Shown: positions 48,974 through 64,000 of the stretch, in pieces
Layout of the letters: the number at the start of each line of letters is the position of its first letter
How positions within the stretch are numbered: the stretch's first letter is position 1
DNA from: Jiangella gansuensis DSM 44835
Lineage (GTDB): Bacteria; Actinomycetota; Actinomycetes; Jiangellales; Jiangellaceae
DNA length: 64,000 nucleotides
NCBI RefSeq assembly: GCF_000515395.1
Contig: NZ_KI911782.1
Span: 1-64,000, forward strand
Direction of reading: 5' to 3'
Position numbers and translations under genes: made by a program
Notes under the pieces: model-generated
Seen by the model: the letters and a program-made list of their open reading frames with translations, nothing else
Databases searched by the model: none
Told to the model about the DNA's origin: nothing

Positions 48974-49897
48974 ATGAGCAAGCACGTCATCGTCGGAGCC
49001 GGCCAGATCGGCGCCCTGCTGGCCACACTGTTGTCGGACGACGGGCAGGACGTCGTGGTGGTGAGCCGGTCCGGCTCCGGCCCGGACGGCGTGACTAACG
49101 TGTCCGCGGACGCGAGCGACCGGGACCGGCTGACCGAGATCACCCGCGGGGCCGACGTCATCTACAACTGCGTCAACCCCCAGTACCACCGCTGGACGCA
49201 GGACTGGCCGCCGATCGCCCGGTCCCTGCTCGGCGCGGCCGAGGCGAACGGCGCTGTGCTGACCATCCTCGGCAACCTCTACGTCTATGGTCCGGTCGAC
49301 GGCCCCATGACGGAGGATCTGCCGCTGGCGAGCACCGGCGTCAAGGGCCAGGTGCGCACCACCATGTGGAACGACGCGCTGACCGCTCACCGCGCCGGCC
49401 GGGTCCGGGTGACGGAGCTGCGCGGCTCGGACTACTTCGGTCCCGGGGTGCTCTCCCAGGGTCACATCGGTGAGCGGTTCGTCCCGGCCCTGCTGGCGGG
49501 CAAGCCGGCCACCTACCTGTTCGACCCTGATGTGGTGCGCAGCTGGACCTATGTCGGCGACGTCGCCCGCGCGCTGGCCGTCGCCGGCCGGGACGAGCGG
49601 GCGTGGGGCCGGGCCTGGCACGTGCCCACGGACGCGCCGCTGACCGCCCGCCAGCTCGCCGATCGGCTCACCCGGGTGGCGGGCGCGCCGCGGTCCAAGG
49701 TCCGGCAGGTCCCGCGGCTGTTCACCGAGGCGATGGCGCTGGGTTCGCCGACGATGCGCGAGATCCGGGAGCTGCGCTACCAGTTCGACCGGCCGTTCGT
49801 GCTGGACTCGTCGGACTTCCAGGAGACGTTCGGCGAGCGGCCCACCCCCATCGACGAAGCCCTGGCCGAAACCGTCCGCTGGTGGCGTTCGCGCTGA
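48974..49897 (+). CDS. NAD-dependent epimerase/dehydratase family protein
   Basis: A 307-residue extended SDR-like protein, MSKHVIVGAGQIGALLATLL at the N-terminus, with NLYVYGPVDGPMTED holding the likely Tyr, and YVGDVARALAVAGRD toward the end. It binds NAD(P) by the Rossmann motif; the substrate cannot be read. The divergent TetR gene with shared operators suggests it is induced by the TetR ligand. Its stop abuts the convergent otnC-like gene. Confidence 0.88.
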   Translation: MSKHVIVGAGQIGALLATLLSDDGQDVVVVSRSGSGPDGVTNVSADASDRDRLTEITRGADVIYNCVNPQYHRWTQDWPPIARSLLGAAEANGAVLTILGNLYVYGPVDGPMTEDLPLASTGVKGQVRTTMWNDALTAHRAGRVRVTELRGSDYFGPGVLSQGHIGERFVPALLAGKPATYLFDPDVVRSWTYVGDVARALAVAGRDERAWGRAWHVPTDAPLTARQLADRLTRVAGAPRSKVRQVPRLFTEAMALGSPTMREIRELRYQFDRPFVLDSSDFQETFGERPTPIDEALAETVRWWRSR

Positions 49898-50482
49898 TCA
49901 CGGCGGCGAGGGCAACTCCCGGTACGGCAGCCCACGCAACAGCAACGCCAGCCTGGCCGTGGACTCCAACTCCTCGGCCAGGTCGGCGGCGAGGTCGATG
50001 TCGGACGCCGCGACCACGCTGCCGTGGTTGGCCATCAGCACCGCGTGGTGCTCGGTCATCAGTTCGGCGACGCCGGTGGCGAGGGCTTCGCTGCCGGGGC
50101 GGGCGTACGGCGCCACCGGCAGCGCGCCGAGCCGGGTGACCTGGTACGGCGTCAGGACAGGCAGCGGCGGTTCGGTGTCGAGGCAGGCCACCGCCACCGC
50201 GTGCACCGAGTGCAGGTGCACGATGGCCCGTGCCTCGGGCCGCGCCCGGTACGCCGCCAGGTGCAGGGGGAACTCCTTGGACGGCCGGTTGGCCGACAGC
50301 GCGGTGCCATCCGTGGCCAGCACGGCAAGGTCGTCCTCGGTGACCCTGCCCAGCGCGCTCCCGGTCGGTGTGACGAAGACCTGCTCGCCCACGCGGACAC
50401 TGGCGTTGCCCGACCCGCCGGGAGACAGACCGAGCGCGGCCAGCCGGCGGCAGGCCAGGACCAGCTGTTCGGCCTGGGTCAC
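49898..50482 (-). CDS. Class II aldolase/decarboxylase family protein, OtnC-like
   Basis: A 194-residue class II aldolase/adducin-fold enzyme. The zinc-binding histidines appear in AIVHLHSVHAVAVACL, with the catalytic region SPGGSGNASVRVGEQVFVTP near the start and ANHGSVVAASDIDLAADLAE near the end. OtnC decarboxylates 3-oxo-tetronate 4-phosphate to DHAP. The assignment follows from the upstream OtnK-like kinase, whose stop it overlaps at GTG 50482. Confidence 0.85.
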   Translation of the reverse strand: MTQAEQLVLACRRLAALGLSPGGSGNASVRVGEQVFVTPTGSALGRVTEDDLAVLATDGTALSANRPSKEFPLHLAAYRARPEARAIVHLHSVHAVAVACLDTEPPLPVLTPYQVTRLGALPVAPYARPGSEALATGVAELMTEHHAVLMANHGSVVAASDIDLAADLAEELESTARLALLLRGLPYRELPSPP

Positions 50483-51762
50483 GGTGCCACCTCCCAGGCG
50501 GTGGTGAACAGATCGGCGGGCCCGAAGTTGCCGGACTTCAGCAGCAGCGCGAGCCGCATCGGACCGGCGCTCACGGTCCACGGCACACCTGGCGCCACCT
50601 GGTCGCCGATGACGACCTGGCGTACGCCCAGAGCCCGGGTCACCGCGCCGGAGGTCTCACCGCCGGCGACGATCAGCCGCCGCACCCCGGCCTCGACGAC
50701 CGCTCGCGCCACGTCGGCGAGGGCGTCCTCGGCCAGCCGCGCGGAGCGGTCGCGCCCGTGCCGTTCCTGCACCCGGCGCAGCTCCTGCGGGTCGAGGCTG
50801 GTGGTGACCAGCACCGGACTGCCGTCGGCGGAGCGCAGCGCGGTGAGCGCCGCGGCGATGGCGGCGGACACCGTCCGGGCGGGGTCGGCCGCGAGGTCGT
50901 CGACCCCGATCCGTACCACCGGCCCACCGAACGCGGCGATCTGCTCGCGGGTGCGCCGCGAGCAGCTACCGGCGAGCACCACCCGCCCGCCGCCGCTGTC
51001 CACGTCCGGTAGCGGCGAGGGACCGGAACCCGGCGCCCGTCCGGCCAGCGTCGCGTACCGGCGAGCCAGCCCGGCTGCCAGTCCGGAGGCGCCACCGAGC
51101 AGCTCGTCGCCCTCGAACAGCGTCGTGGCGTGCAGATCGAGGTCGGCGTCGGTGATGGCGTCCAGGAGTACGTGCCCGCCGGCGGCGGCAGCCACCTGAC
51201 GGCGCACCGAGGCGGGCGCGTCGGCGCGGCCACCGAACGTCGGCCACGGCACCACCGCGACCGGCCGCGGAGTCTGGGCGCCCAGGACCCGCGCCAGGTC
51301 GGGGTCGGTCATCGGGGTCAGCGGATGGTCGCGCAGCGGCGACTCCGACAGCAGCCGCCCGTCCACGAAGAGGTGCCCCTGGTAGACGGTGCGCCCGACG
51401 GCAGGAGTGGCGGGCGTGCCCACGGACGACCCCGTGCCGGTCAGGTCGGCAAGCGCGTCGGCGACCGGCCCGATGGTGCCGTCCTTCGTGGAGTCGAAGG
51501 TCGAGCAGTACTTCTGGTACAGCCGCTGTGCGCCGTGGTCGAGAAGCCATTGCCCGGCGGCGACGGACCAGGCGACGGCGTCGTCGGCCGGTGCGGTCCG
51601 CGAGGCCAGCGCGACGACGGCGCACTCGGCGCCGGGTGCCGGTTCGTCACCGGGCTGCGGCGGCCCGAGCAGGACGGTGGCCGGCAGTCCGGCCGCCGTC
51701 ACGACGCCGGCGAGGTCGCAGGCGCCGGTGACGTCGTCGGCGATCACACCCAACCAGGTCAT
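50479..51762 (-). CDS. DUF1537 four-carbon acid sugar kinase, OtnK-like
   Basis: A 427-residue kinase that phosphorylates 3-oxo-tetronates at O4. The signatures GVIADDVTGACDLAG at the start and LYQKYCSTFDSTKDGTIGPV in the first third are distinctive for this group. The C-terminal nucleotide-binding domain has VAGGETSGAVTRALG. It overlaps the DeoR gene and otnC by 4 bases each, so the three form an operon. The usual dehydrogenase (LtnD) and isomerase (OtnI) are not adjacent. Confidence 0.9.
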   Translation of the reverse strand: MTWLGVIADDVTGACDLAGVVTAAGLPATVLLGPPQPGDEPAPGAECAVVALASRTAPADDAVAWSVAAGQWLLDHGAQRLYQKYCSTFDSTKDGTIGPVADALADLTGTGSSVGTPATPAVGRTVYQGHLFVDGRLLSESPLRDHPLTPMTDPDLARVLGAQTPRPVAVVPWPTFGGRADAPASVRRQVAAAAGGHVLLDAITDADLDLHATTLFEGDELLGGASGLAAGLARRYATLAGRAPGSGPSPLPDVDSGGGRVVLAGSCSRRTREQIAAFGGPVVRIGVDDLAADPARTVSAAIAAALTALRSADGSPVLVTTSLDPQELRRVQERHGRDRSARLAEDALADVARAVVEAGVRRLIVAGGETSGAVTRALGVRQVVIGDQVAPGVPWTVSAGPMRLALLLKSGNFGPADLFTTAWEVAP

Positions 51763-52577
51763 TGCGGCTCACCCGCCGGCTCCACCGACGTCGCCGCGGC
51801 GGGTCCGCGGGTCGGCTTGACCCCGGCCAGGACCACCCGCACGCCCGCCGCCCGGATGGCGGACGCCGTCACCGCCGGGGCGGATTCGTCGGTGACCAGC
51901 ACGGCGACGGACTCCAGCCCGGCGAACCGGATGGGTGCGTGCGCACGCAGTTTCGACCCGTCGGTGGCGACGATGACGGAGCGGGCGGCACCCGCGATGG
52001 CCTGCTTGGTCTCCGCGTCGTACAGATCACTGCAGTACACACCGTCGGGGCCGACGGCGGTGGCCGAGAGCACGGCGACGTCGACGACGATGTCCTGCAG
52101 TGCCGTGCGTACGGCCGGGCCGCCGAACGACCGCGTGACGGGGTGGAAGATGCCCCCCAGGCCGATCAGCCGCAGGTCCGTGCGGGCGGCGCAGCTGGCG
52201 ATGACCGGGACCGAGTGGGTGACGACCGTGAGGTCGGGCGGGAGCACTTCCGCCAGCCGGGCCACGGTCGTGCCGGAGTCGAGGGCCACCGTGGCGCCCG
52301 GTTCGAGCAACGCCGCGGTGGCGCCGGCGACGGCCCGCTTCTGTCCGGCGCTGTGGTCGCTGCGCTGCTCGAACGGCACGCCGGCGCCGTCGGGCAGCCG
52401 GGCGCCGCCGGTCACCCGGACGGCGTACCCGTCGTCGGCGAGCTGGTGGAGGTCGCGCCGGATGGTCATCTCCGAGACGCCGAGGTCGGCCGCGGCATGG
52501 CCCGCCGAGACGTATCCGGACGCGCGCAGCCGTTTCAGCAGCTCATCGCGCCGCCGCGGCGCGTCGGTGTAACGCAC
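51759..52577 (-). CDS. DeoR-family transcriptional regulator
   Basis: A 272-residue sugar-responsive repressor. The N-terminal HTH is VSAGHAAADLGVSEMTIRRD followed by LHQLADDGYAVRVTGGARLP. The C-terminal sugar-phosphate isomerase-like domain has ALDSGTTVARLAEVLP and DGVYCSDLYDAETKQAI. I chose GTG 52577: a minus-strand TTGACA lies at 52613-52608, so the longer frame upstream would include its own promoter. It probably controls both its own operon and the divergent aldolase. Confidence 0.9.
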   Translation of the reverse strand: MRYTDAPRRRDELLKRLRASGYVSAGHAAADLGVSEMTIRRDLHQLADDGYAVRVTGGARLPDGAGVPFEQRSDHSAGQKRAVAGATAALLEPGATVALDSGTTVARLAEVLPPDLTVVTHSVPVIASCAARTDLRLIGLGGIFHPVTRSFGGPAVRTALQDIVVDVAVLSATAVGPDGVYCSDLYDAETKQAIAGAARSVIVATDGSKLRAHAPIRFAGLESVAVLVTDESAPAVTASAIRAAGVRVVLAGVKPTRGPAAATSVEPAGEPQ

Positions 52578-52607
52578 CCGCTCAGCAAAGTCGATCGCCG
52601 ACTTTTC

Positions 52608-52656
52608 TGTCAAGTATCGAACACTTCTTGACGAGTTTGTTCGACTTCTCACAAAC
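52608..52656. promoter_or_regulatory. Divergent promoters and operator for DeoR and aldolase
   Basis: Plus strand: -35 TTGACG (52628-52633), 17-base spacer, -10 ACAAAC (52651-52656), close to the aldolase ATG at 52664. Minus strand: -35 TTGACA (52613-52608). An inverted repeat, TCGAACA (52617-52623) with TGTTCGA (52638-52644), spans both and is the likely DeoR site. Confidence 0.6.
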
Positions 52657-52663
52657 TACGGTC

Positions 52664-53590
52664 ATGACACGTGTCCCCACCCTCGATGCGCTGGCCCGCC
52701 CCGGCGGCGGCCTCGCGATGGTCGCGATGGATCAGCGCGAGAGCCTGCGCACCATGTTCGACCAGGCCGGAGCCGGGCGGCCGGAAACCAGTGAGCTGAT
52801 CGACTTCAAGCTCGAGGTGGCTCGTCGCCTCGGTCCGTTCGCCTCGGGCTTCCTGATCGACCGGGAGCTGGGCTTCGAGGACGTGCGCCGCGACCGGCTG
52901 CTTCCGGAAACGTGTGGGCTGATCCTGGCCGTCGACGCGCTGGAGCAGCAGATGGGCGGGCCGGTCGAGGAGACCGCGCTCGACCCGGCGTTCCTGGCCG
53001 ACGGCAGTGACCTCGACGGCGTCGCGGCGGTGAAGCTCCTGGTGATCTGGCGCCGGGACCAGCGGCGCGAGCAGCGGGTGGAGCTCGCTCGCGACTTCAT
53101 CGAGGCGGCCCGCGCCCGGGGCGTTCTGTCCGTGCTGGAGCCGGTGGTCCGGCCGACGGCGGCGGAGCAGGACGGCGGCGGCTGGGACCTGAATGCCGCC
53201 ATCCGCGAGGCGGCCGAGGAACTGTCGATCCTGGGGCCGAGCCTGTACAAGGCGCAGGTTCCCAGCGCTGGTGAGGGCGAGCCGGCCGAACTCGAGGACG
53301 CGTGCCGTGAACTCGACGACGCGATCACCGGCCCGTGGGTGGTGCTCTCGCAGGGTGTCCGGCAGGACCGGTTCCCGGCCGCGGTCGAGGCTGCGTGCCG
53401 CGCGGGTGCGTCCGGGTTCCTGGCCGGCCGGGCGCTGTGGAGCGATGTGGTCGGCCAGCCGCGCACGGGACTGGCCGAACGGTCGGTGCCCCGGCTGGAA
53501 CGGCTGGTGTCCATCGTCGACGAGCACGCCAGGCCGTGGTGGGGCGAGCCGGCCCCAGCGGCGCGGCAGGGCGACGGAGCGAACGGATGA
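52664..53590 (+). CDS. Class I aldolase of the LacD/YihT type
   Basis: A 308-residue TIM-barrel aldolase. The N-terminus LARPGGGLAMVAMDQRESLR and VARRLGPFASGFLIDRELGF resemble tagatose-1,6-bisphosphate aldolase (LacD) and sulfofructose-1-phosphate aldolase (YihT). The Schiff-base lysine is Lys196 in GPSLYKAQVP. Substrate candidates are a tagatose- or fructose-type phosphate, or a deoxysulfo-sugar phosphate; the sequence alone does not decide. It begins 8 bases after its own promoter and overlaps the racemase-like gene by 4 bases. Confidence 0.82.
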   Translation: MTRVPTLDALARPGGGLAMVAMDQRESLRTMFDQAGAGRPETSELIDFKLEVARRLGPFASGFLIDRELGFEDVRRDRLLPETCGLILAVDALEQQMGGPVEETALDPAFLADGSDLDGVAAVKLLVIWRRDQRREQRVELARDFIEAARARGVLSVLEPVVRPTAAEQDGGGWDLNAAIREAAEELSILGPSLYKAQVPSAGEGEPAELEDACRELDDAITGPWVVLSQGVRQDRFPAAVEAACRAGASGFLAGRALWSDVVGQPRTGLAERSVPRLERLVSIVDEHARPWWGEPAPAARQGDGANG

Positions 53591-54270
53591 CCCGCGTCGG
53601 CCTCGTGCACACCGTCCCGTCGCTCGGCCCGGTCTTTCACGACCTGGTGTCCGAGGCGGCCGGTGACCGCGACATCGAGCCCATCCACGTCACCGATCCC
53701 TGGCTGCTGCGCACGGCGCTGTCGGCCGGTGTCACGCCCGACGTGGTCGACCGGCTGGCCGCGCACGTGGCGTACCTGCGCGAGCGTGGGGCCGCCGGCG
53801 TGCTGGTGACGTGCTCGTCGCTGGGAGAGGCCAGCGAGCAGGTGCTCGACCGGCTCGGCGATGACGTCCCGGTGGTGCGCGTCGACCAGGGCATGGCCGA
53901 CCGCGCCGTCGAACTTGCCGGCGACGGCGGCAGAGTGGCCGTTCTCGCGACGGCCGGCTCGACGGTCGGGCCGACGCGGCGGCTGGTACAGCGCAGCGCG
54001 GAGGCGGCCGGCATCGAGGTCACGGTCGAGGTCGAGCTGCTGGAGGAGGCCGCGCACGCTCGGGACGGCGGCGACGGCAGCCGTCACGACGCGCTGGTGG
54101 CCGAGGCGGTCGGCCGATGGGCGCGGCCGGAGCGGTCCGACGTCGTGGTGCTGGCTCAGGCATCCATGGCCGCCGCGGCGAGGTCTGCCGCCGGCGCCGC
54201 CGCAGTGCCGGTGCTGAGCTCGCCGGAGCTGGCCGCACGCCGTCTCGTCGACGTCACCACACCGCCATGA
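53587..54270 (+). CDS. Aspartate/glutamate racemase superfamily protein, one catalytic Cys missing
   Basis: A 227-residue protein of the Asp/Glu/hydantoin racemase fold. The first catalytic Cys is present in GVLVTCSSLGEAS. The second position, usually in a GC(T/P) motif, reads VVVLAQASMAAAA and has no Cys. A canonical two-base racemisation is therefore unlikely. Isomerase, decarboxylase-like or binding roles are possible. It is coupled to the aldolase, so its substrate is probably a sugar-derived acid. Confidence 0.75.
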   Translation: MTRVGLVHTVPSLGPVFHDLVSEAAGDRDIEPIHVTDPWLLRTALSAGVTPDVVDRLAAHVAYLRERGAAGVLVTCSSLGEASEQVLDRLGDDVPVVRVDQGMADRAVELAGDGGRVAVLATAGSTVGPTRRLVQRSAEAAGIEVTVEVELLEEAAHARDGGDGSRHDALVAEAVGRWARPERSDVVVLAQASMAAAARSAAGAAAVPVLSSPELAARRLVDVTTPP

Positions 54271-54517: not shown

Positions 54518-55918
54518 ATGAGACCAGCAGCTGTTCGATGGTCCGTCGTGGCGCTGACGGCCGGCATGGTGCTGGCTGGTTGCGCCCAGGGCACCAGTGA
54601 CGACGATTCGGACGACGAGTCCGGTGGCGCCGTCTTCGATCCCGAAGCCGAGCTGAGCGGCGAGCTGAACGTCATGGGGTTCGGCGCCACCGACGAGATC
54701 GGGCAGACCCGGATCGACCTGGCCGGTGAGGCGATCGCGCCGGCCGAGATCAGCCTCATCGAGGGCGACCTGGACATCCAGCAGTTCCTGTCCGCCATCG
54801 CCAGCGGTGAGCCGCCGGAACTGGTCTACGCCAACCGCGACCAGATCGGCACCTTCGCCTCGCGCGGCGCCATCATGCCGCTGGACGAGTGCATCGAGGG
54901 CGAGGGCATCGACACGTCGATGTACCTCGAGCCGGCGCTGGAGCAGGTGACCTTCGACGGCCAGACCTACGGCATCCCGGAGTTCAACTCGGTCCAGATC
55001 ACGCAGGCGAACGCCGACCTGCTGGCCGCCGCCGGGCTGACGATCGAGGACGTCAACGGCTCCGACTGGGATGCCGTCAGCGCCGCCAACCAGGCGATGT
55101 ACCAAGGCAGCGGCAACAGCCTGTCGGTCATCGGCTACGACAGCAAGCTGCCGGAGTTCCTGCCCCTGTGGGCCAAGGCCAACGGCGCCGACCTGCTCTC
55201 CGAGGACGGCCGGACCGCTCAGCTCGACGACCCCGCCGTGCTCGAGGCGCTGGAGTGGGCCGTCAGCATCTACGACGCGCAGGGCGGCTTCGGCGTGGTG
55301 AAGGCGTACCGCGACTCCGCCGACTTCTTCGGCGCGGGCAACCAGTTCGCCACCAACGTGCTGGGCGCGATGCCGATGGAGCAGTGGTACGTCAACGTGC
55401 TCAACGACGTGTCGCCGGACGCGCCGATGGCGTTCGACACCGTCCGCGACCTGGAGGGTGAGCCGCTCGCCTACGCGTCGGGCTCGGCGTGGGCCATCCC
55501 GGACGGCAGCGCCAACCCGGAGGCCGCCTGCCGGTTCATCAAGACCATGACGGAGACGGAGAGCTGGATCGCGGCCGCCCAGGCCCGCGTCGACCTGCGC
55601 GAGGCCGAGGGCAAGCCGTTCACCGGCCTGCTCACCGGCAACGCCGAGGCGGACGCGGCCATCCAGGAGCAGTTCGTCCAGCCCATCGGCGACCCGAAGT
55701 GGGACGCCGCCGTCGAGGCCACCTACGAGGCCAACGAGCACACGTTCACCCTGCCGGCCAACCCGGCCGACGCGGAGTTCAAGACCGCGTGGCAGGACGC
55801 CGTGAACCGGGTTCTCAACGGTCAGCAGGAGCCCGCGGACGCCCTGGCGCAGGCACAGGAGGAAGCTCAGGCGGCTCTCGACGAGGCGTGGGCGACCTGG
55901 GACGAGGAAGAGGGCTGA
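54518..55918 (+). CDS. ABC sugar transporter substrate-binding lipoprotein (CUT1)
   Basis: A 466-residue extracytoplasmic binding protein. The signal peptide ends at the lipobox VLAGC (residue about 22), followed by an acidic Asp/Ser/Glu linker. The fold is that of SBP_bac_1 sugar-binding proteins, as in GDLDIQQFLSAIASGEPPEL and AYASGSAWAIPDGSANPEAA. Its position ahead of two permeases and three glycosidases suggests an oligosaccharide ligand. GGAGGAC precedes the ATG. Confidence 0.92.
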   Translation: MRPAAVRWSVVALTAGMVLAGCAQGTSDDDSDDESGGAVFDPEAELSGELNVMGFGATDEIGQTRIDLAGEAIAPAEISLIEGDLDIQQFLSAIASGEPPELVYANRDQIGTFASRGAIMPLDECIEGEGIDTSMYLEPALEQVTFDGQTYGIPEFNSVQITQANADLLAAAGLTIEDVNGSDWDAVSAANQAMYQGSGNSLSVIGYDSKLPEFLPLWAKANGADLLSEDGRTAQLDDPAVLEALEWAVSIYDAQGGFGVVKAYRDSADFFGAGNQFATNVLGAMPMEQWYVNVLNDVSPDAPMAFDTVRDLEGEPLAYASGSAWAIPDGSANPEAACRFIKTMTETESWIAAAQARVDLREAEGKPFTGLLTGNAEADAAIQEQFVQPIGDPKWDAAVEATYEANEHTFTLPANPADAEFKTAWQDAVNRVLNGQQEPADALAQAQEEAQAALDEAWATWDEEEG

Positions 55919-55922
55919 CGCC

Positions 55923-56885
55923 TTGGCCTCCACGCAGGTCCACGCGCCCGGGTCGCTCGGTGATGACCGAGCGGCCCGGGCGCGCCGCATCAGCCGCCGG
56001 CGGGAGATGAGGGCGGCACTGCTGTTCATCAGCCCGTGGATCATCGGCTTCCTGGTCTTCACGGCGTGGCCGATCATCTACAGCGGCTACCTGTCGCTGA
56101 CCGACTACGACGTGATCAACAGCCCGAACTTCGTGGGCCTCGAGAACTACGAAGAGCTGTTCCGCGACCCCAAGGTCAGGCTGTCGCTGTGGAACACGTT
56201 CTTCTTCACGGTCATCCAGGTGCCGGTCTACGTCATCGTCTCGCTGGGCCTGGCACTGCTGCTGGACAAGGCCGGGCGTGCGTCGGGGTTCTTCCGCACG
56301 GCCTTCTTCCTGCCGAAGATGACGCCGCCGGTGGCCGTCGGCATCCTGCTCCTGCTGCTGTTCAACGGGCAGAGCGGCCTGATCAACGGCGTGCTGGGTT
56401 GGTTCGGTATCGACGGCCCGGCCTGGACCACCGACCCGAACTGGGTCAAGCCCGGCCTGATCCTGATGAGCCTCTGGTCGGTCGGCTCGTCGGTGATCAT
56501 CCTGCTGGCCGCGCTGCGAAACGTGCCGCAGGAGCTGTACGACTCCGCCCGCGTCGACGGCGCCAACTGGTGGCAGCAGACCCGGAAGATCACCGTCCCC
56601 ATGATCAGCGGGGCGCTGTTCTTCATCTTCATCGTCAACACCATCGCCGGGTTCCAGACGTTCACCGAGGCCTACACGGCGTTCTTCGGGTCCGGCAACA
56701 CGACCTACAGCAACGACGCGGCGCTGTTCTACGTGATCTACCTGTTCCGCGAGGCGTTCGAGTTCCTGCACATGGGTTACGCCTCGGCGTTGGCCTGGCT
56801 GCTGTTCGTGATCATCATGATCTTCACCGCGATCCAGATCAAGGTCAGCCGGCGGTTCGTCTACTACGAGGGTGAGCAGCGATGA
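55923..56885 (+). CDS. ABC sugar transporter permease (MalF-type)
   Basis: A 320-residue permease with six membrane helices. The EAA loop reads LYDSARVDGANWWQQTRKIT, and the start is ALLFISPWIIGFLVFTAWPI. The initiation codon is TTG at 55923, 4 bases after the upstream stop, with GAAGAGGG nearby. ATG 56007 is the next in-frame start but would remove the usual cytoplasmic N-terminus. The ATPase is not in this operon; in actinobacteria a shared MsiK protein often serves. Confidence 0.92.
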   Translation: MASTQVHAPGSLGDDRAARARRISRRREMRAALLFISPWIIGFLVFTAWPIIYSGYLSLTDYDVINSPNFVGLENYEELFRDPKVRLSLWNTFFFTVIQVPVYVIVSLGLALLLDKAGRASGFFRTAFFLPKMTPPVAVGILLLLLFNGQSGLINGVLGWFGIDGPAWTTDPNWVKPGLILMSLWSVGSSVIILLAALRNVPQELYDSARVDGANWWQQTRKITVPMISGALFFIFIVNTIAGFQTFTEAYTAFFGSGNTTYSNDAALFYVIYLFREAFEFLHMGYASALAWLLFVIIMIFTAIQIKVSRRFVYYEGEQR

Positions 56886-57787
56886 CGACGCAGACGCGGC
56901 TCGGACCGCCGACCGAGGCGCCGGAACCGGACGCGCCGCCACGGCCGAAGCGCCGCCGCAGGATCACGCCGGTCAAGGCGCTGATCTGGACCGGCCTGGT
57001 GCTGGCGACGCTGGTGTTCATCTACCCGTTCATCTGGCTGATCAGTGCGTCGTTCAAGCCCCGCGGCGAGGTCTTCGACAACAAGCTCATCCCGGAGACG
57101 TTCACGTTCGAGAACTACCTGAACGTCTGGGACGAGGCGCCGATGGCGCTGTGGCTGTGGAACACGATCCTGGTGACCGTGCTGGCGGCCGTGACGGTGA
57201 CGCTGAGCAGCGCGCTGGTGGCGTGGGGCTTCTCGTACTTCCGCTTCCGCGGACGCAACGTGCTGTTCGGTGTGGTGCTGGCGACGATGATGCTGCCGGG
57301 CGCGGTGACGATGATCCCCCAGTTCCTCATCTGGAACAGCCTCGGCATGGTGGACACGCTGACGCCGCTGTGGGCGCAGAACCTGTTCGGCAGCGCCTTC
57401 TACATCTTCCTGTTGCGGCAGTTCTTCCTCGGCCTGCCACGGGAGCTGTTCGAGGCCGCCCGCATCGACGGCGCCAACAACTGGATGATCTTCCGACGCA
57501 TCGCGATGCCGCTGTGCAAACCGGCATTGATCATCACGCTGATCTTCGAGTTCCAGGCCGCCTGGACCGATCTGATGCGACCGCTGATCTACCTGCGCGA
57601 CAGCGACAACTTCACGGTTCCGCGGGGACTGAAGGCGTTGCTGGACCAGTACGGCTTCGGAGGTGAGTGGCACTGGGAGATCGTCGTGACCGCCAGCGTG
57701 ATCACGACGGTCCCGATGATCATCCTGTTCTTCATCGGACAGCGGCACTTCGTCCAGGGCATCGCGACCACCGGAAGCAAGGGGTGA
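56882..57787 (+). CDS. ABC sugar transporter permease (MalG-type)
   Basis: A 301-residue permease with six membrane helices and an EAA loop LFEAARIDGANNWMIFRRIA. It overlaps the first permease and the GH2 gene by 4 bases each. The pair with the MalF-type protein forms the channel of a carbohydrate importer. Confidence 0.93.
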   Translation: MTTQTRLGPPTEAPEPDAPPRPKRRRRITPVKALIWTGLVLATLVFIYPFIWLISASFKPRGEVFDNKLIPETFTFENYLNVWDEAPMALWLWNTILVTVLAAVTVTLSSALVAWGFSYFRFRGRNVLFGVVLATMMLPGAVTMIPQFLIWNSLGMVDTLTPLWAQNLFGSAFYIFLLRQFFLGLPRELFEAARIDGANNWMIFRRIAMPLCKPALIITLIFEFQAAWTDLMRPLIYLRDSDNFTVPRGLKALLDQYGFGGEWHWEIVVTASVITTVPMIILFFIGQRHFVQGIATTGSKG

Positions 57788-60381
57788 CGGCGGTCGATCT
57801 CGGTGGCAGGTGGTCGGTGCGCGAGGCGCTCGGCGACACGTGGCAGTGGTATCTGGACAAGCCGGTGACGGCGCGGAACAACGCCGGTGAGGCGGCGGCG
57901 GGAGCCAGCCTGACCCCGGGCTGGCTGCCCGCCTGCGTCCCCGGTGCCGTGATCGGTGACCTGCACCGTGCCGGCGAGCTGCCCGACCCGTATGTCGGCC
58001 GCAACTCCCGGTTCGCGGAGTGGGTCAGCGCGCGCTCCTGGGTATACCGGCGCTCGGTCTCGGTGCCGTCGCTGGCGGACGGGGAACGGGCGGTCCTGTG
58101 CCTGGACGGCGTCGACCCCGGCGGGACCGTGTGGGTCGACGGTGCCCGCGTCGGCCGCGTGGACGGGCTCTATCGCCGGGCCCGGTTCGATGTGACGGAG
58201 CAGGTGGCGCCCGGCGGGGATCACCGGCTGGCGGTCGTGGTGGACCCGGCCCCGGCCACCGAGCCGCAGGTGGGCCGCACCGACCGGGTCACCGTGCACA
58301 CGCCGCGGATGGGCTACGGCTGGGACTTCTGTCCGCGGCTGATCCACCAGGGAATCTGGCGCGACGTCCGGCTGGAGATCGGCCGGCTGCACCTGGCCGA
58401 GGCGTCGGTGCGACCGTCGTTGGACGCCGGTCTGGCAGCCGGCCGGCTGGAGGTCCGCGGCGTGGTCGAGGCCCCGCCCGGCGTGCCGGTGACCGGAGAG
58501 GTGGTGGTCCGGTACGACGGCGCCGAGGTCGCGGCCGCGTCCCTCGCGGCCGGCCCGGCGGGTGAGCTGACTGGATCGGTGACGGTGCCGCAGCCACGGC
58601 TGTGGTGGCCGAACGGCCTCGGCGACCAGCCGCTGTACGACGTCGAGCTTCGGGTGAGCGAGCCGGACGGTGGCTCGGCGTCCTGGCAGGGCCGCACCGG
58701 CTTCCGGCACGTGCGCATGGTGGCGAACGACGGTGCCGAGCCCGGTGCGCTGCCGTACACCGCCGTCGTCAACGGCCGGCGGATCGAGCTGCTGGGCTGG
58801 AACTGGGCACCGGCCGACGCGCTTTACGGGGACATCGACGCGGCGAAGGTCGAGCACGTGGTCGATCTCGCCGCTCGCTCCGGAGCCCGGCTGATGCGGG
58901 TGTGGGGCGGTGGGCTGGTCGAGACACCCGACTTCTACGCCGCCTGCGACCGCGCCGGGCTACTGATCTGGCAGGAGTTCTCGCAGTCCAGCTCCGGCCT
59001 GCAGAGTGCGCCATCGCGCGATCCCGGCTTCGTCGACCATCTACGGGCCGAGGCCGGCGCCGTCGTGCCCGGACGCACCCGCCATCCGTCGCTGCTGATG
59101 TGGGGCGGCGGCAACGAGCTGGAGGACGACACCGGCCCGCTGTCCGAGGACCGCTCCCCCGCGCTGGCCGCACTGCGCGAAGAGGTGGCCCGGCTGGACC
59201 CGGGCCGGCACTGGGTGGCGACGTCGCCGACCGGGCGCCGCTTCCACAACCGGCTGGACGTCATCGACGCCGACCCGGACGGCCTGCACGACGTGCACGG
59301 CCCGTGGGAGCATCAGGGCCTTGAGGCGCACTACACCCTGTACAACCGCGGCCGGGCGCTGGCGCACACCGAGTTCGGCGTCGAAGGCATGGCCAACCGG
59401 CGGGCCTGGACGGCGTCGGTGCCGACGCCCGACCAGTGGCCGGTCGGGCGTGACAACCCGGTCTACCGGCACCTGGGCGACTGGTGGAACAACGCCGAGC
59501 TGGTGCGCGAGTGCTTCGGCGGCCGGCTCGACTCCCCCGATGCCTACCGCGCGGCGAGCCAGTTCCTGCAGGCCACGGGGCTGGCCTACGCCGTGGAGGC
59601 GGACCGGCGGCGGTGGCCCCGGTGCAGCATGGTGCTGCCCTGGCAGTTGGCGGAGTCGTATCCGAACGCCTGGTGTACGGCGGTCGTGGACCACGCGGGC
59701 GAGCCGAAGCCGGCGTTCCACGCCGTCGCGCGGGCCTACCGGCCAGAGCGCGTGACCGCTCGGGTCGACCGGATCGCGCATCGGGGCGAAGCGCCCATGG
59801 TCGAGGCGTGGGTCTGGTCCGAACCCGGCCGCGCTCCCGGAGGCACCGTCACCGCGCGGCTACTGGACCAGCACGGCCGGCCGGTCGCCGAGGAGCGCTG
59901 GACCCTCGGCGCCGTCGCCGAGCCGAGACCGGCAGGCACGCTGAGCGTCGCCGTCGGTGCGCTGTCCACGCCACTGGGCTTCTGGCAGCTGGAGTGGCGC
60001 GCGCGGGACGGCTCGGTCATCGACGAGGAAGTCGTCCTCCTGGCCGCGGGAGCGGACCTGAGCGCGCTGCTGGACCTCCCGCCGGTAGAGGTGATGTTCC
60101 ACGTGGAACGGACAGCCGACCGCTGGGTCGTCGACGTCGAACACACAGGCGGAGCGGTCGCGGTTGGCCTGCGACTGTCCGACGACCGGCCGCCGGAGTC
60201 CACCGGCTGGGCCGTCGTCGACGGTGATCCGCGGCCGCTGCTGCCCGGCCGGCGGCGCCGCCTCACCGTCCGGTGGCGACACGACACCGGCCCGCGCCGG
60301 CTGCTGCTGGAGTCCTGGAACACCAAACCCCTGACCCTGGAGGGTCGCGCAACACCGGCCGCCGGTCGGGCCGGGTCGTGA
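57784..60381 (+). CDS. Glycoside hydrolase family 2 protein, beta-mannosidase-like
   Basis: An 865-residue retaining glycosidase. The N-terminal sugar-binding domain starts LGGRWSVREALGDTWQWYL, followed by the jelly-roll and immunoglobulin-like parts, and the catalytic barrel has LMWGGGNELEDD (acid/base Glu445) and LAHTEFGVEGMAN (nucleophile Glu530). The layout matches GH2 beta-mannosidases rather than beta-galactosidases. No signal peptide is seen, so it acts on imported oligosaccharides. GTG 57784 overlaps the permease stop. Confidence 0.88.
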   Translation: MTAVDLGGRWSVREALGDTWQWYLDKPVTARNNAGEAAAGASLTPGWLPACVPGAVIGDLHRAGELPDPYVGRNSRFAEWVSARSWVYRRSVSVPSLADGERAVLCLDGVDPGGTVWVDGARVGRVDGLYRRARFDVTEQVAPGGDHRLAVVVDPAPATEPQVGRTDRVTVHTPRMGYGWDFCPRLIHQGIWRDVRLEIGRLHLAEASVRPSLDAGLAAGRLEVRGVVEAPPGVPVTGEVVVRYDGAEVAAASLAAGPAGELTGSVTVPQPRLWWPNGLGDQPLYDVELRVSEPDGGSASWQGRTGFRHVRMVANDGAEPGALPYTAVVNGRRIELLGWNWAPADALYGDIDAAKVEHVVDLAARSGARLMRVWGGGLVETPDFYAACDRAGLLIWQEFSQSSSGLQSAPSRDPGFVDHLRAEAGAVVPGRTRHPSLLMWGGGNELEDDTGPLSEDRSPALAALREEVARLDPGRHWVATSPTGRRFHNRLDVIDADPDGLHDVHGPWEHQGLEAHYTLYNRGRALAHTEFGVEGMANRRAWTASVPTPDQWPVGRDNPVYRHLGDWWNNAELVRECFGGRLDSPDAYRAASQFLQATGLAYAVEADRRRWPRCSMVLPWQLAESYPNAWCTAVVDHAGEPKPAFHAVARAYRPERVTARVDRIAHRGEAPMVEAWVWSEPGRAPGGTVTARLLDQHGRPVAEERWTLGAVAEPRPAGTLSVAVGALSTPLGFWQLEWRARDGSVIDEEVVLLAAGADLSALLDLPPVEVMFHVERTADRWVVDVEHTGGAVAVGLRLSDDRPPESTGWAVVDGDPRPLLPGRRRRLTVRWRHDTGPRRLLLESWNTKPLTLEGRATPAAGRAGS

Positions 60382-60451: not shown

Positions 60452-61834
60452 ATGACGCACCAGTTCCCGCCCGGCTTCCTGTGGGGCGCCGGCACCTCGG
60501 CCTACCAGATCGAGGGCAGCCTGGACGCCGACGGCCGGGGTGAATCGGTCTGGGACGTCTTCGCCCGCCGCGCCGGGGCCGTCGAGGGTGGCGGCGACGG
60601 CTCCCGTGCCTGCGACTCGTATCGGCGCTGGGCCGAAGACGTCGACCTGGTGGCTGAGCTGGGGCTGGGCGCGTACCGGTTCTCCGTCGGCTGGTCGCGC
60701 GTCATGCCCGACGGCCGGGGCCGGATCGAGCAGCGCGGCCTGGACCACTACGAGCGGTTCGTCGACGCGCTGCTGGATCGCGGCGTCGCGCCGGTCCTGA
60801 CACTGAACCACTGGGACATGCCGCAGGCTCTGATGGCTGACGGCGGGTGGGCGGCACGCTCCAGCGTCGACGCGTTCGCCGAGTACACGGCCGCCGTCGC
60901 GGACCGGCTGGCCGACCGCGTCGAGTGGTGGATCACCCAGAACGAGCCGTGGATCATCGCGCTGCTCGGCTACCAGCTCGGCCTGCACGCCCCCGGAGTG
61001 CGTGACCTCGGCGCATCGGTCGCGGCCGGGCACCACGTGCTGCTGGCGCACGGTGCCGGCGCCGACGTCCTGCGCGCTCACCCCGGCACCCAGGTCGGCG
61101 CGGCACTGAGCCTGTTCCCCTGCGACCCGGCGACGTTCACCGAACAGGACGCGGCCGCCGCCTGGGGCTCAGACGGCTACGTCAACCGCTGGTACCTGGA
61201 TCCACTGGCCGGCCGCGGCTACCCGGCGGACATGCGCGAACACTATGAGCGTGCGCTCGGCCGTCCGCTGACCGAGATCCGGGACGGCGACGAAGCAGCC
61301 ATCGGCGGGCGCAGCGACTTCCTGGGCGTCAACTACTACACTCGGCGGGTCATGGCCGCGGCCGAACCGGCGCCGGGGCGGCCGTTCCCGTGGCGGGTCG
61401 TCGGTCCGTCCGGTGACGTCGCCCGCACCGACGAGGGTTGGGAGATCGCTCCCGCGTCCTTCCGGGACCTGCTCATCCGGCTGCACCGCGAGTACCAGCT
61501 GCCGGTGGTCGTCACCGAGAACGGCGGGGTGTTCGGCGACACACCCGCCCACGACGGTCGAGTGCACGACGTGCGCCGCTCGGCGTTCCTGCGCGATCAC
61601 GTCGAGGCGCTGGGCCAGGCGCTGGCCGCAGGTGCGGACGTGCGCGGCTACCTGCACTGGTCGCTGCTGGACAACTTCGAGTGGGCGCTGGGCTACCGGC
61701 CCCGGTTCGGCCTGGTTCACGTCGACTACGTGACCGGCCGGCGCACGATCAAGGACTCGGCCCGGCTGTACGCGCGGATCGCCCGCACCGGCGCCCTGCC
61801 CGCCGACGACGAGCCGATCGCCCCGTTCGGCTGA
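60452..61834 (+). CDS. Glycoside hydrolase family 1 beta-glucosidase-like enzyme
   Basis: A 460-residue cytoplasmic GH1 enzyme. FLWGAGTSAYQIEGSLDADG opens the protein, the acid/base Glu165 is in WITQNEPWII, and the nucleophile Glu356 is in VVVTENGGVFGD. The C-terminal YLHWSLLDNFEWALGYRPRF is complete. Substrates may be beta-glucosides, beta-galactosides or beta-fucosides. It follows the GH2 gene by 70 bp with GAGAAAGG before the ATG. Confidence 0.95.
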   Translation: MTHQFPPGFLWGAGTSAYQIEGSLDADGRGESVWDVFARRAGAVEGGGDGSRACDSYRRWAEDVDLVAELGLGAYRFSVGWSRVMPDGRGRIEQRGLDHYERFVDALLDRGVAPVLTLNHWDMPQALMADGGWAARSSVDAFAEYTAAVADRLADRVEWWITQNEPWIIALLGYQLGLHAPGVRDLGASVAAGHHVLLAHGAGADVLRAHPGTQVGAALSLFPCDPATFTEQDAAAAWGSDGYVNRWYLDPLAGRGYPADMREHYERALGRPLTEIRDGDEAAIGGRSDFLGVNYYTRRVMAAAEPAPGRPFPWRVVGPSGDVARTDEGWEIAPASFRDLLIRLHREYQLPVVVTENGGVFGDTPAHDGRVHDVRRSAFLRDHVEALGQALAAGADVRGYLHWSLLDNFEWALGYRPRFGLVHVDYVTGRRTIKDSARLYARIARTGALPADDEPIAPFG

Positions 61835-61864: not shown

Positions 61865-63733
61865 ATGACGCTGACCACGCCCGGGATCGCGGTACACCAG
61901 GGTGACGACGGCACCGTCGTGCTCGGCACGGGATACCGGCTGGAATTCGACCGCCGGCAACCGCGCGCCGTCCTCAGCGACTCCGACGGGAGGGTCTGGA
62001 CCGAGCTGTCGCTGCTGGCCGGGCTCGACCTGGTCGGAGGCCGCGACGAGTCGTACGACATCGCGCCGGCCCGGGTGACGGCCGCGTCCGACGACGCCGT
62101 CGAGCTGGTGGTGGAGGCGGCCAGCCCGGTGTGGGAGAGCAAGGCCGTGCATCTGCGGTGCACTACGGACGAGATCGAGGTCTGGGCCCGGGCGTCGGAC
62201 GCGCGCATCCCGGCCTCGGCCCGCCTGGCCGAGGTGACACTGCTGGGTGGGCGCGCCGTGCTGCCGAACGGAGCCGGTGGGACGTTCCGTTCGTCCATCC
62301 GCTTCGCGTCCCTGTTCAGCCCGGCCCCGACCGAGCCGGTGCACGTCGTGCGGCCCTCCACCGCGGCGTCGTCCCTGGGCGTGGTGGGTGATGCGGGGCC
62401 GGGCCGGCTGCACGGCATCTTCTCCCCGCCGCCGCTGTGCTGGGCGTTGGGTGAGAAGCCCGCGAACGGCGCCACCGACGTGCCGGACGGCCGGTGGTGG
62501 GGGCTGTCGCTGCGAGCGCCGGTGGCGGAGCTGACCATGACGGCGGCGCGGTACGCACCGCTGGACGGCGGGTTCGTGCTGCGGCTCGAATACGAGGGGC
62601 ACACCGTGGTGGGCGCCGAGGGTGTGCGCACCCCGTCGGTGGTGCTGCGGCCGGCGGACACGCCGTGGCAGGCGCTGACGGACTACCGGGACGACCTGGT
62701 GCGGCGCGGACTCGCGCCGGACGAGCCGGAGGCCGGCCCCGAGTGGTGGGCCGAGCCGATCTTCTGTGGCTGGGGCGCCCAGTGCGCCCGGGCGGCCGCG
62801 TTGACCGCCCAGAGCGCGACGCCCGACGGCGACGGCCTGATCGGCGGCACCACGGTGACAGTGGCGTCGCAGCTGGCACGGCAGGACGTGTACGACGAGT
62901 TCCTGAACGTGCTCGACGGCGCCGGGCTGAACCCGGGCACGATCGTGATCGACGACCGGTGGCAGGCCGCGTACGGCACCGGGGACGTCGACCTCGAGCA
63001 CTGGCCGGACCTGCGCGGCTGGATCGCCGACCGGCACGCCGAGGGCCGGCGGGTGCTGTTGTGGTGGAAGGCCTGGGACCCCCAGGGGCTGCCGGTCGAG
63101 GAGTGTGTCACCGACCCGGCCGGCCATCCGGTGGCCGTGGACGTCGCCAACCCGGCCTACCGGGAGCGGCTGGCGGGCATCGTCGCGCAGCTGATCGGGC
63201 CGGACGGCCTGGACGCCGACGGATTCAAGATCGACTTCACCCAGCGGGCGCCATCGGGCGAGTCGCTGCGGGCGGCGGACGGGCCGTGGGGCATCGCGGC
63301 GCTGCACACGATGCTGGCGACCATGTCGGCAGCGGCGAAGCGGGCCAAGCCGGACGCGCTGATGGTGACGCACACGCCGCATCCGTCCTTCGGCGACGTC
63401 TGCGACATGGTCCGGCTCAACGACGTCCTGGACCGTGACGTCGCCGGTGACCCGGTGCACGTGGTGGAGCAGTTGACGTTCCGGCACGCGGTGGCCGGCC
63501 GGGCGCTGCCCGGTCACCTGATCGACACCGACCAGTGGCCCATGCCGGACCGCGTCTCGTGGCGGGCCTATGTCGAGGCACAGGGTGACCTCGGCGTGGA
63601 GGCAGTGCCGGCGCTGTACTACCTGGAGACAATTGACGGCTCGGGCGAGCGGCTGACCGGTGACGATCTCGCACTCGTCGCGTCGTCGTGGGCGCGATAC
63701 CGGACCATGCGCGGCCAGGAGGTGACCCCGTGA
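61865..63733 (+). CDS. TIM-barrel glycoside hydrolase, alpha-galactosidase-like
   Basis: A 622-residue protein with a beta-rich N-terminal domain (about 1-270) and a TIM barrel similar in style to clan GH-D (GH27/GH36) enzymes: GTIVIDDRWQAAYG, RRVLLWWKAWDP and DADGFKIDFT, in which Asp457 sits where GH36 has its nucleophile. The match to known families is only by pattern, so the substrate linkage is open. No signal peptide. GAAGAGGAAG precedes the ATG. It overlaps the next gene by 4 bases. Confidence 0.72.
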   Translation: MTLTTPGIAVHQGDDGTVVLGTGYRLEFDRRQPRAVLSDSDGRVWTELSLLAGLDLVGGRDESYDIAPARVTAASDDAVELVVEAASPVWESKAVHLRCTTDEIEVWARASDARIPASARLAEVTLLGGRAVLPNGAGGTFRSSIRFASLFSPAPTEPVHVVRPSTAASSLGVVGDAGPGRLHGIFSPPPLCWALGEKPANGATDVPDGRWWGLSLRAPVAELTMTAARYAPLDGGFVLRLEYEGHTVVGAEGVRTPSVVLRPADTPWQALTDYRDDLVRRGLAPDEPEAGPEWWAEPIFCGWGAQCARAAALTAQSATPDGDGLIGGTTVTVASQLARQDVYDEFLNVLDGAGLNPGTIVIDDRWQAAYGTGDVDLEHWPDLRGWIADRHAEGRRVLLWWKAWDPQGLPVEECVTDPAGHPVAVDVANPAYRERLAGIVAQLIGPDGLDADGFKIDFTQRAPSGESLRAADGPWGIAALHTMLATMSAAAKRAKPDALMVTHTPHPSFGDVCDMVRLNDVLDRDVAGDPVHVVEQLTFRHAVAGRALPGHLIDTDQWPMPDRVSWRAYVEAQGDLGVEAVPALYYLETIDGSGERLTGDDLALVASSWARYRTMRGQEVTP

Positions 63734-64000
63734 CCGACGTCGTCGTCTACGGGGCCACGTCCGGAGGCGTCTGCGCGGCGGTGGCCGCGGCCCGCGCCGG
63801 CGCCGCCGTCGTCCTGGTCGAACCCGGTCGGCACGTCGGCGGCATGACCACCGGCGGGCTCGGCTACACCGACGTCGGCGACGTGCGCGTGGTCCGCGGC
63901 ATGGCCTGCGAACTGCGCACGGCGATCGCATCCTGGTACGGCGTCGCCGAAGGGCATTTCGCCGGGCCGGAGCCGCACGTCGCGGAGGCGATCTACCGGC
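63730..64000 (+). CDS. FAD-dependent oxidoreductase (partial, cut by window end)
   Basis: Only the first 90 codons are inside the window. They show an FAD-binding Rossmann motif VVVYGATSGGVCAAVAAARA, then EPGRHVGGMTTGGLGYTDV, as in the FAD_oxidored family. The GTG start overlaps the upstream stop, so it belongs to the glycosidase operon. Members of this family next to glycosidases are thought to oxidise sugars or other glycoside parts; here this is an inference. Confidence 0.82.
   Translation, partial: MTDVVVYGATSGGVCAAVAAARAGAAVVLVEPGRHVGGMTTGGLGYTDVGDVRVVRGMACELRTAIASWYGVAEGHFAGPEPHVAEAIYR

Follow-up and report, generated by a model that had tools for sequence, protein, structure and literature searches.

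The catabolism of L-threonate and D-erythronate employs a dehydrogenase (LtnD or DenD), the isomerase OtnI, the kinase OtnK and the decarboxylase OtnC and yields dihydroxyacetone phosphate (DHAP), according to the parts of PMC12540250 on which we draw. A second pathway of interest, the sulfoglycolytic Embden-Meyerhof-Parnas (sulfo-EMP) route, relies on YihS, YihV and YihT, with an actinobacterial variant presented in PMC8873060, of which we likewise use parts. Here, we analyzed a locus within the first 64 kb (the window) of the single-contig 5.59-Mb genome of Jiangella gansuensis DSM 44835, in which OtnK and OtnC are encoded back to back with a class I aldolase (ALD) and a protein of the Asp/Glu-racemase fold (RAC). 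Our data suggest that soil actinobacteria share this co-regulated enzyme set, which probably degrades an acidic sugar to a glycolysis intermediate by an undescribed route. The original prediction made from this DNA had named five genes, all of which we recovered in place with family profiles:

49898..50482, minus strand: OtnC, with a GTG start (PF00596, 171.9 bits)
50479..51762, minus strand: OtnK, 3-oxo-tetronate kinase of the DUF1537 family (NF043035, 417.9 bits, cut-off 350; PF07005, PF17042)
51759..52577, minus strand: DeoR-family regulator (PF08220 and PF00455; HTH_DeoR 54.9 bits, DeoRC 127.4 bits)
52608..52657, no strand: predicted shared divergent promoter/operator (alignment of 19 divergent intergenic regions)
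52664..53590, plus strand: ALD, class I aldolase of the DeoC/LacD family (PF01791)
53587..54270, plus strand: RAC, Asp/Glu-racemase-fold protein (PF01177, 48.3 bits, cut-off 31)

OtnC, the regulator and ALD were scored from slightly longer start sites. Both arms are compact, with 4-bp overlaps at the DeoR/OtnK, OtnK/OtnC and ALD/RAC junctions, and they diverge across a gap of 86 bp that contains the 50-bp element. The nearest named matches of RAC come from Jiangella species (75% and 72% identity).

The two arms had been proposed to stand under a shared operator, and this view is upheld by the conserved element, by the same divergent gene order in other genera and by co-occurrence at the genome level. 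The element, with the pattern TGTCAA..CGNACA..CTTGAC..TGTTCG..GAACA..AAACT, is conserved in the divergent gap of 19 loci from two families, although the regulators are down to 48% identical. Sixteen of the 19 sites align in register, while those of L070, L157 and L144 are shifted by one base, L144 being the weakest. Scanning the 92 kb around the locus with a matrix that included the window's own site returned a single strong match of 75.3 bits; the next non-overlapping match scored -4.7, and the best of five shuffled controls reached 2.3 bits. We had considered that the same operator might also precede the transporter and glycosidase genes or the cluster of glycoside hydrolase (GH) family 38, which we discarded, as there is no second site in the 92 kb. 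DeoR relatives of 48-89% identity adjoin ALD or an FGGY-family sugar kinase in Jiangellaceae and Microbacteriaceae, and the regulators of sulfo-EMP-like loci face other intergenic sequences. The site was found neither in three separate OtnK loci (L181, L182, L184) nor in L153, L174 and L175.

The neighbourhoods of the aldolase and racemase-like families, a comparison the original prediction had proposed, were collected from 40 relatives, 393 genomes of the class, 299 Microbacteriaceae, 295 Streptomyces and 19 named loci, and DeoR-OtnK-OtnC recurs together with ALD-RAC in Jiangellaceae, Microbacteriaceae and Streptomyces. We chose 37 loci for adjacent ALD and RAC genes (L013, L015 and L016 being named loci without a genome handle); local partners are OtnK in 24, OtnC in 23 and DeoR in 20 of them. 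An FGGY kinase, with a profile nearest to gluconate and xylulose kinases, precedes ALD in 24/24 loci outside Jiangellaceae and in 0/13 inside. The usual order in Microbacteriaceae is DeoR-OtnK-OtnC divergent from FGGY-ALD-RAC (L144, L154, L156-L160, L163), with OtnK missing from the divergent arrangement of L161. Streptomyces carries FGGY-ALD-RAC-OtnK-OtnC on one strand (L172, L174, L175; L176 with an OtnK fragment). Genes in the relatives' loci were called by codon usage, whereby start sites may be wrong and a few genes may be wrong or missed, such as ALD in L165 and OtnC in L181. As a separate observation, FGGY-ALD-RAC of genus g207 (L162, L164, L166) is embedded among what look like haem biosynthesis genes, and neither OtnK nor a glycosidase was recognised in the vicinity; genomes G572, G522 and G462 lack an OtnK above the cut-off.

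Within Jiangellaceae, OtnK passes its cut-off in 12/13 genomes with ALD-RAC versus 0/7 without (Fisher p=1.0e-4; the low-completeness G013 and G014 omitted), G016 being counted on the basis of a locus that also has an OtnI relative; leaving G016 out gives 11/12 and p=1.6e-4. The corresponding numbers for Microbacteriaceae are 10/16 versus 44/283 (Fisher p=5.8e-5), where G513 is represented by split matches below the cut-off and G535 by its RAC score alone; dropping G535 and scoring G513 as a miss gives p=2.0e-4. The two Microbacteriaceae searches covered 299 genomes each and were taken as the same draw, as judged from agreeing handles. All these p-values come from related genomes and thus from trials that are not independent. 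Taken together, operator, gene order and genome co-occurrence support, on sequence grounds, the two arms being one co-regulated unit.

Compared to the L-threonate/D-erythronate pathway, the module has an OtnK over the cut-off and an OtnC of the Aldolase_II (3-oxo) type, so that DHAP is the expected product; it differs in that LtnD, DenD and OtnI do not adjoin and that a kinase-aldolase-RAC arm lies under the same operator. OtnC scores 196.7 bits against NF043034 (cut-off 250), which is still its best-matching family. Only 2/42 genomes searched hold an OtnC over this cut-off, and the OtnC of one FGGY-ALD-RAC locus (L012) passes with 277.0 bits. That the usual dehydrogenase and isomerase are missing, as had been claimed, holds well for the isomerase and, for the dehydrogenases, at the scale of the loci at which they were judged: none of LtnD, DenD and OtnI stands beside the genes or is among the families recurring in the 37 loci, LtnD and DenD not having been sought genome-wide. 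Applied to a canonical locus (L186), these models do recover LtnD, DenD and OtnI, each above its cut-off. We also considered the NAD-epimerase-like gene at 48974-49897 as a D-erythronate dehydrogenase. This candidate was rejected, as it gave no DenD match and could not be meaningfully aligned with a true DenD, which itself scores 356 bits (cut-off 325); the gene accompanies a TetR gene and a major facilitator superfamily gene in 10/13 Jiangellaceae loci only.

For OtnI, we searched 30 ALD-RAC genomes (G535, G572, G522, G584 and G462 were left out) using the OtnI relative of L126, which itself scores 284.7 bits against an OtnI cut-off of 325. A close relative of 48-50% identity occurs in 2/30 genomes (G016 and G896); 18/30 show matches of 32-40% identity and 10/30 none at E 1e-15. 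The eight weak matches that were scored, out of 18, are all nearer to hydroxypyruvate isomerase, with none over either cut-off. In the window's genome, the nearest OtnI relative (33% identity) lies at 4.696 Mb and reaches 237 bits as hydroxypyruvate isomerase versus 152 bits as OtnI. The relative in G896 exceeds the OtnI cut-off and belongs to a canonical locus with LtnD, DenD and OtnI.

ALD had been likened to both tagatose-bisphosphate (LacD) and sulfofructose-phosphate (YihT) aldolases. The closest solved structure is indeed YihT (E=2.6e-64, 43% identity), whereas LacD is only distant (TIGR01232, 38.9 bits, cut-off 432.2; PRK12858, 128.4 bits, cut-off 184). A tree built from 48 aldolases places all 37 RAC-linked sequences in one clade (support 98/94). 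YihT groups with 8/9 other aldolases outside this clade, and the ninth, L088, forms a long branch beside it with unsure placement. As judged from the tree, ALD represents a sister clade of the sulfofructose-phosphate aldolases. At 24 positions, at least 90% of the RAC-linked sequences share a residue that the other aldolases rarely have. S27 of ALD is replaced by A in 8/9 other-group rows (A in YihT), Q95 by P in 6/9 (P in YihT), R131 by P in 8/9 (S in YihT), Q198, two residues after the Schiff-base lysine position, by E in 9/9 (E in YihT), and Q230, beside the phosphate site, by S in 7/9 (S in YihT). Common to ALD and YihT are K196 at the Schiff-base lysine position and S229, G231, G255 and R256; we take these residues to serve Schiff-base formation and phosphate binding.

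The likeness to YihT raises the question of whether ALD is a sulfofructose-phosphate aldolase of a sulfoglycolytic route, as had been entertained for this locus. The 43% identity and the shared phosphate-site and Schiff-base positions speak for it, and, as in sulfo-EMP, an aldolase of the YihT kind would follow a sugar kinase with DHAP as the expected product. Against it stand the separate clade, the fixed differences and the neighbours. Here, FGGY replaces the PfkB kinase, and YihS and a sulfolactaldehyde (SLA) enzyme are lacking. Neither a sulfoquinovose (SQ) isomerase nor a PfkB-type kinase nor an SLA enzyme is among the families recurring in at least 4 of the 37 loci, and the window neighbours scanned include no SQ isomerase, sulfofructose kinase, SLA reductase or SLA dehydrogenase. 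Moreover, several of the aldolases grouping with YihT come from sulfo-EMP-like loci; the loci L082, L085, L089 and L177 contain SQ-isomerase-like (below the cut-off), PfkB or PFK, and aldehyde-dehydrogenase genes, and two genomes (G015, G021) carry both aldolase types. Judged by clade, residues and neighbours, a sulfo-sugar route is therefore very unlikely, and ALD should not be taken as a marker of sulfoglycolysis. The YihT-group loci L082-L089 and L177, from Jiangellaceae and one Streptomyces, are separate from the module described here, several having sulfo-EMP-like neighbours. In Mycetocola (L011, L152), ALD carries Glu at the lysine position and genome G584 has no OtnK match, a pattern that possibly reflects pathway decay.

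The predicted model of RAC (predicted local distance difference test, pLDDT, of 94.8) adopts the Asp/Glu-racemase fold and superposes with aspartate racemase 1jfl at a Z-score of 22.1 and a root mean square deviation of 2.7 over 212 residues; arylmalonate decarboxylase and maleate isomerase are lower-ranked structural matches, and a sequence search with RAC against the PDB gave nothing meaningful. Racemases of this fold generally use two cysteines. RAC has a single one among 227 residues, C76, which corresponds to the first of the two catalytic cysteines in MurI according to an HH alignment covering the first half only. This alignment gives no C-terminal mapping, and loss of the second cysteine is deduced from the lack of any other Cys in the protein. 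The C76 motif is kept in 83/83 RAC relatives; where the second racemase cysteine is expected, 75/83 have a Gln motif (LAQxS), and an L[GAT]C motif occurs in the C-terminal part of 0/83. These 83 relatives were picked with a profile of the same family and are not an independent sample. In the ALD-linked relatives, LAQASM is conserved. Arylmalonate decarboxylase and maleate isomerase perform non-racemase chemistry on this fold, the decarboxylase with one catalytic cysteine. RAC shares their fold and differs from both; it retains the first cysteine, as does an engineered Gly74Cys-Cys188Ser decarboxylase named in a structure title.

Since a lone cysteine fits it better, we favour a one-base carbonyl shift through an enediol over racemisation. 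RAC could alternatively be a 2-epimerase of the 3-oxo acid that feeds OtnK, using one base or a second base other than cysteine, a reading to which the predicted fold and the co-occurrence of RAC relatives with an OtnI relative in L126 and L180 would be agreeable. The lone cysteine at the position of the first catalytic residue of MurI and the motif counts among the profile-picked relatives make it unlikely.

The RAC family is found beside DUF1537 kinases in three contexts, with 33/83 relatives labelled as outside all of them. The first is the Jiangella type, with ALD and OtnK-OtnC. In the second, a RAC relative adjoins OtnK-OtnC without ALD (L126, L127, L129, L179, L183, L185). It lies directly upstream of the pair in L126 and L180, which add a 2-hydroxyacid dehydrogenase and an OtnI relative, and in L127, L183 and L185, which add an isopropylmalate/tartrate-type dehydrogenase. 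In G016 (L180:8980-10857, minus strand), a single open frame of 625 codons encodes both a RAC relative and OtnK; this natural fusion is neighboured by OtnC, the OtnI relative and the 2-hydroxyacid dehydrogenase. We rejected the idea that RAC simply stands in for OtnI wherever it occurs, as L126 and L180 carry both. The third context (L149) brings a RAC relative together with a kinase resembling OiaK, a RuBisCO-like protein resembling OiaX and a protein resembling aceric acid hydrolase (775 bits, cut-off 950), the OiaK, OiaX and hydrolase models all scoring below their cut-offs. Like D-apionate-type OiaK/OiaX pathways, L149-like loci pair a DUF1537 kinase with a RAC relative; they differ from the Jiangella module in that a RuBisCO-like decarboxylase replaces OtnC, ALD is lacking and the aceric-acid-hydrolase-like gene takes the place of the glycosidases. 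L149 (G000:C1:839000-858999) harbours a second RAC relative of the J. gansuensis genome, at 848.7 kb, together with an ABC transporter; similar genes were found by BLAST in L143, L150, L151 and L167-L169. From its gene content, L149 is a candidate locus for aceric acid catabolism, and no other sugar isomerase was recognised in loci of this type among the part of their genes that was scanned or read. What the three contexts would have in common is an acid that carries a keto group beta to its carboxylate and a terminal hydroxyl that the kinase can phosphorylate.

The sequences show the genes and how they are linked, the operator common to both arms, ALD as a clade of its own, the predicted fold and lone cysteine of RAC and the rarity of OtnI, whereas all catalytic steps of ALD and RAC, their order and the substrate are inferred. 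In the scheme that we favour, with a probability of roughly 0.4, the DeoR-controlled module would break down an acidic sugar from imported glycosides to DHAP in a sequential chain. A kinase, FGGY outside Jiangellaceae, would make a 2-ketose 1-phosphate, which ALD would split through a Schiff base into DHAP and a carboxylate-bearing aldehyde. With its one catalytic cysteine, RAC would shift the carbonyl via an enediol and turn the aldehyde into a hydroxymethyl ketone, that is a 3-oxo acid, most simply 3-oxo-tetronate. OtnK would then phosphorylate the terminal hydroxyl, and OtnC would decarboxylate the product to a second DHAP and CO2. This chain would be redox-neutral and is built from recurring enzymes only, and no dehydrogenase family is common to all module lineages in the 37 loci. 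With OtnI absent locally and the arms co-regulated, the combination does look like a different sugar-acid route, as had been supposed. If OtnK acts on 3-oxo-tetronate, mass balance calls for a tetruronate as the aldehyde and for a C7 keto-uronate as the entry sugar. In its fullest form, the reading would make the single-cysteine, LAQASM-type branch of the Asp/Glu racemases a new sugar-acid isomerase that feeds 3-oxo acids to DUF1537 kinases, to one of which it is fused. It would close here a redox-neutral route (ketose kinase, YihT-like aldolase, RAC, OtnK, OtnC) from a C7 keto-uronic acid to two DHAP and one CO2, with a sister branch for aceric acid. We rate this full version below the sequential chain as such and hold it to be rather doubtful.

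Several observations weigh against the sequential chain. A seven-carbon keto-uronate would be chemically neat but, to our knowledge, has no natural source, and none came up in the literature under hepturonic acid. The module also lacks a constant aldose-ketose isomerase that would act on the entry sugar. A Jiangella orthologue of FGGY was not found: the best Jiangellaceae score is 183 bits versus 570-646 for two true orthologues, which speaks against an FGGY kinase hidden elsewhere and leaves the first step in Jiangella unexplained. OtnC falls below its family cut-off, one Mycetocola ALD has the Glu at the Schiff-base position, and an FAD oxidoreductase of 16 loci (see below) may contribute a redox reaction. 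With an OtnI relative present in L126 and L180 (a weaker one in L179), RAC need not replace OtnI there. Twelve ALD-RAC genomes with a handle lack a local OtnK. Three of them (G015, G021, G721) have a DeoR/OtnK unit elsewhere with OtnC adjoining (L181, L182, L184), and three (G016, G393, G144) have OtnK in another locus type or at a contig end. In the remaining six (G001, G520, G522, G572, G584, G462), no OtnK over the cut-off was found genome-wide; thus, a genome can apparently have ALD-RAC and lack OtnK-OtnC. G535, whose ALD was not found by the gene caller, likewise has no OtnK above the cut-off.

These genomes also bear on the main rival, in which one regulator controls two parallel branches. 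FGGY-ALD(-RAC) would cleave a ketose 1-phosphate to DHAP and lactaldehyde, glyceraldehyde or tartronate semialdehyde, OtnK-OtnC would use a tetronate made by dehydrogenases encoded elsewhere, and both sugars would derive from one glycan. Six to seven genomes retaining ALD-RAC without OtnK would fit, as would RAC staying with ALD while OtnK is local in 24/37 loci (although selected for ALD-RAC) and the missing FGGY kinase of Jiangella. One of the three separate DeoR/OtnK units, L184, has a 3-hydroxyacyl-CoA-dehydrogenase-like gene between DeoR and OtnK. The many glycosidases around the module (GH1, GH2, GH38, GH84, GH13) make a mixed glycan likely, which also counts for two branches. However, LtnD, DenD and OtnI do not recur in the loci and a close OtnI is rare genome-wide; L181 and L182 have no dehydrogenase beside DeoR/OtnK-OtnC. 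Elsewhere, moreover, RAC relatives directly adjoin OtnK, and in L180 the two are fused. We regard two branches as possible but tentative.

All proteins of the sequential chain belong to known superfamilies, and OtnK-OtnC is a known pair. In the literature searched, which covered OtnK/OtnC, DUF1537, isoapionate and aceric acid, with thin coverage of subscription papers, we found no account of this pair together with an FGGY kinase, a YihT-like aldolase and a racemase-fold protein that has one cysteine. If true, the chain would assign a testable function to two protein groups that have none so far: the actinobacterial aldolases described here, for which tagatose-bisphosphate aldolase is the closest named model, and the Asp/Glu-racemase-fold proteins with one cysteine that neighbour DUF1537 kinases. 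It would also open an OtnI-free way into 3-oxo-tetronate breakdown and hint at an acidic sugar of soil glycans that has gone unrecognised.

Downstream of RAC, the plus-strand arm continues to 65262 in the genome with transporter, glycosidase and oxidoreductase genes:

54518..55918, plus strand: sugar ABC transporter, solute-binding protein (PF01547)
55923..56885, plus strand: sugar ABC transporter permease (PF00528)
56882..57787, plus strand: sugar ABC transporter permease (PF00528)
57784..60381, plus strand: GH2 glycosidase, beta-mannosidase-like (PF22666, PF02837, PF00703)
60452..61834, plus strand: GH1 beta-glucosidase (PF00232, 458 bits; TIGR03356, 517.7 bits, cut-off 478.5)
61865..63733, plus strand: glycosidase-like protein (faint GH31 similarity; best PDB match a GH31 alpha-galactosidase, E=1.9e-4)
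63730..64000, ending at 65262 in the genome, plus strand: start of an FAD-dependent oxidoreductase (PF12831, 322.7 bits on L028:3730-5262)

The solute-binding protein is present in 13/13 Jiangellaceae loci and the FAD oxidoreductase in 16/37 ALD-RAC loci. The best PDB matches of the GH2 protein are an unnamed GH2 and beta-mannosidases. The protein at 61865-63733 has no Pfam or NCBIfam match and a predicted model with a pLDDT of 40.5; it is conserved in 18/37 loci and possibly represents a new glycosidase family. Near the module, a GmhA-like SIS protein (phosphoheptose-isomerase-like, scoring below the cut-off), a ROK kinase and GH38 occur in at least 12, 10 and 14 of the 37 loci, respectively, these counts being lower bounds as most stretches are 20 kb long. 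The three would suit heptose chemistry and equally plain mannose.

A sucrose-phosphorylase-like GH13 gene follows RAC in 9 Microbacteriaceae loci (308.7 bits, cut-off 334.4; 426 bits to a solved sucrose phosphorylase) and could deliver fructose to ALD as an ordinary fructose/tagatose phosphate aldolase, with which the FGGY profile would also be compatible. This GH13 is found in 0/13 Jiangellaceae and 0/7 Streptomyces loci, the LacD models score far below cut-off, and RAC, OtnK and OtnC would be left without a role, so that we consider this explanation improbable.

In several Microbacteriaceae loci, a metallo-beta-lactamase-domain protein recurs after the unclassified glycosidase; two stretches were matched (L028:5854-8901 and L131:941-2761), near GH38/GH127-like genes. 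Finally, the predicted proteins at 40037-41473 and at G000 89369-90622, some 49 kb apart, are nearly identical over their N-terminal 60 residues and, PP2C-like by eye, perhaps reflect a partial duplication.

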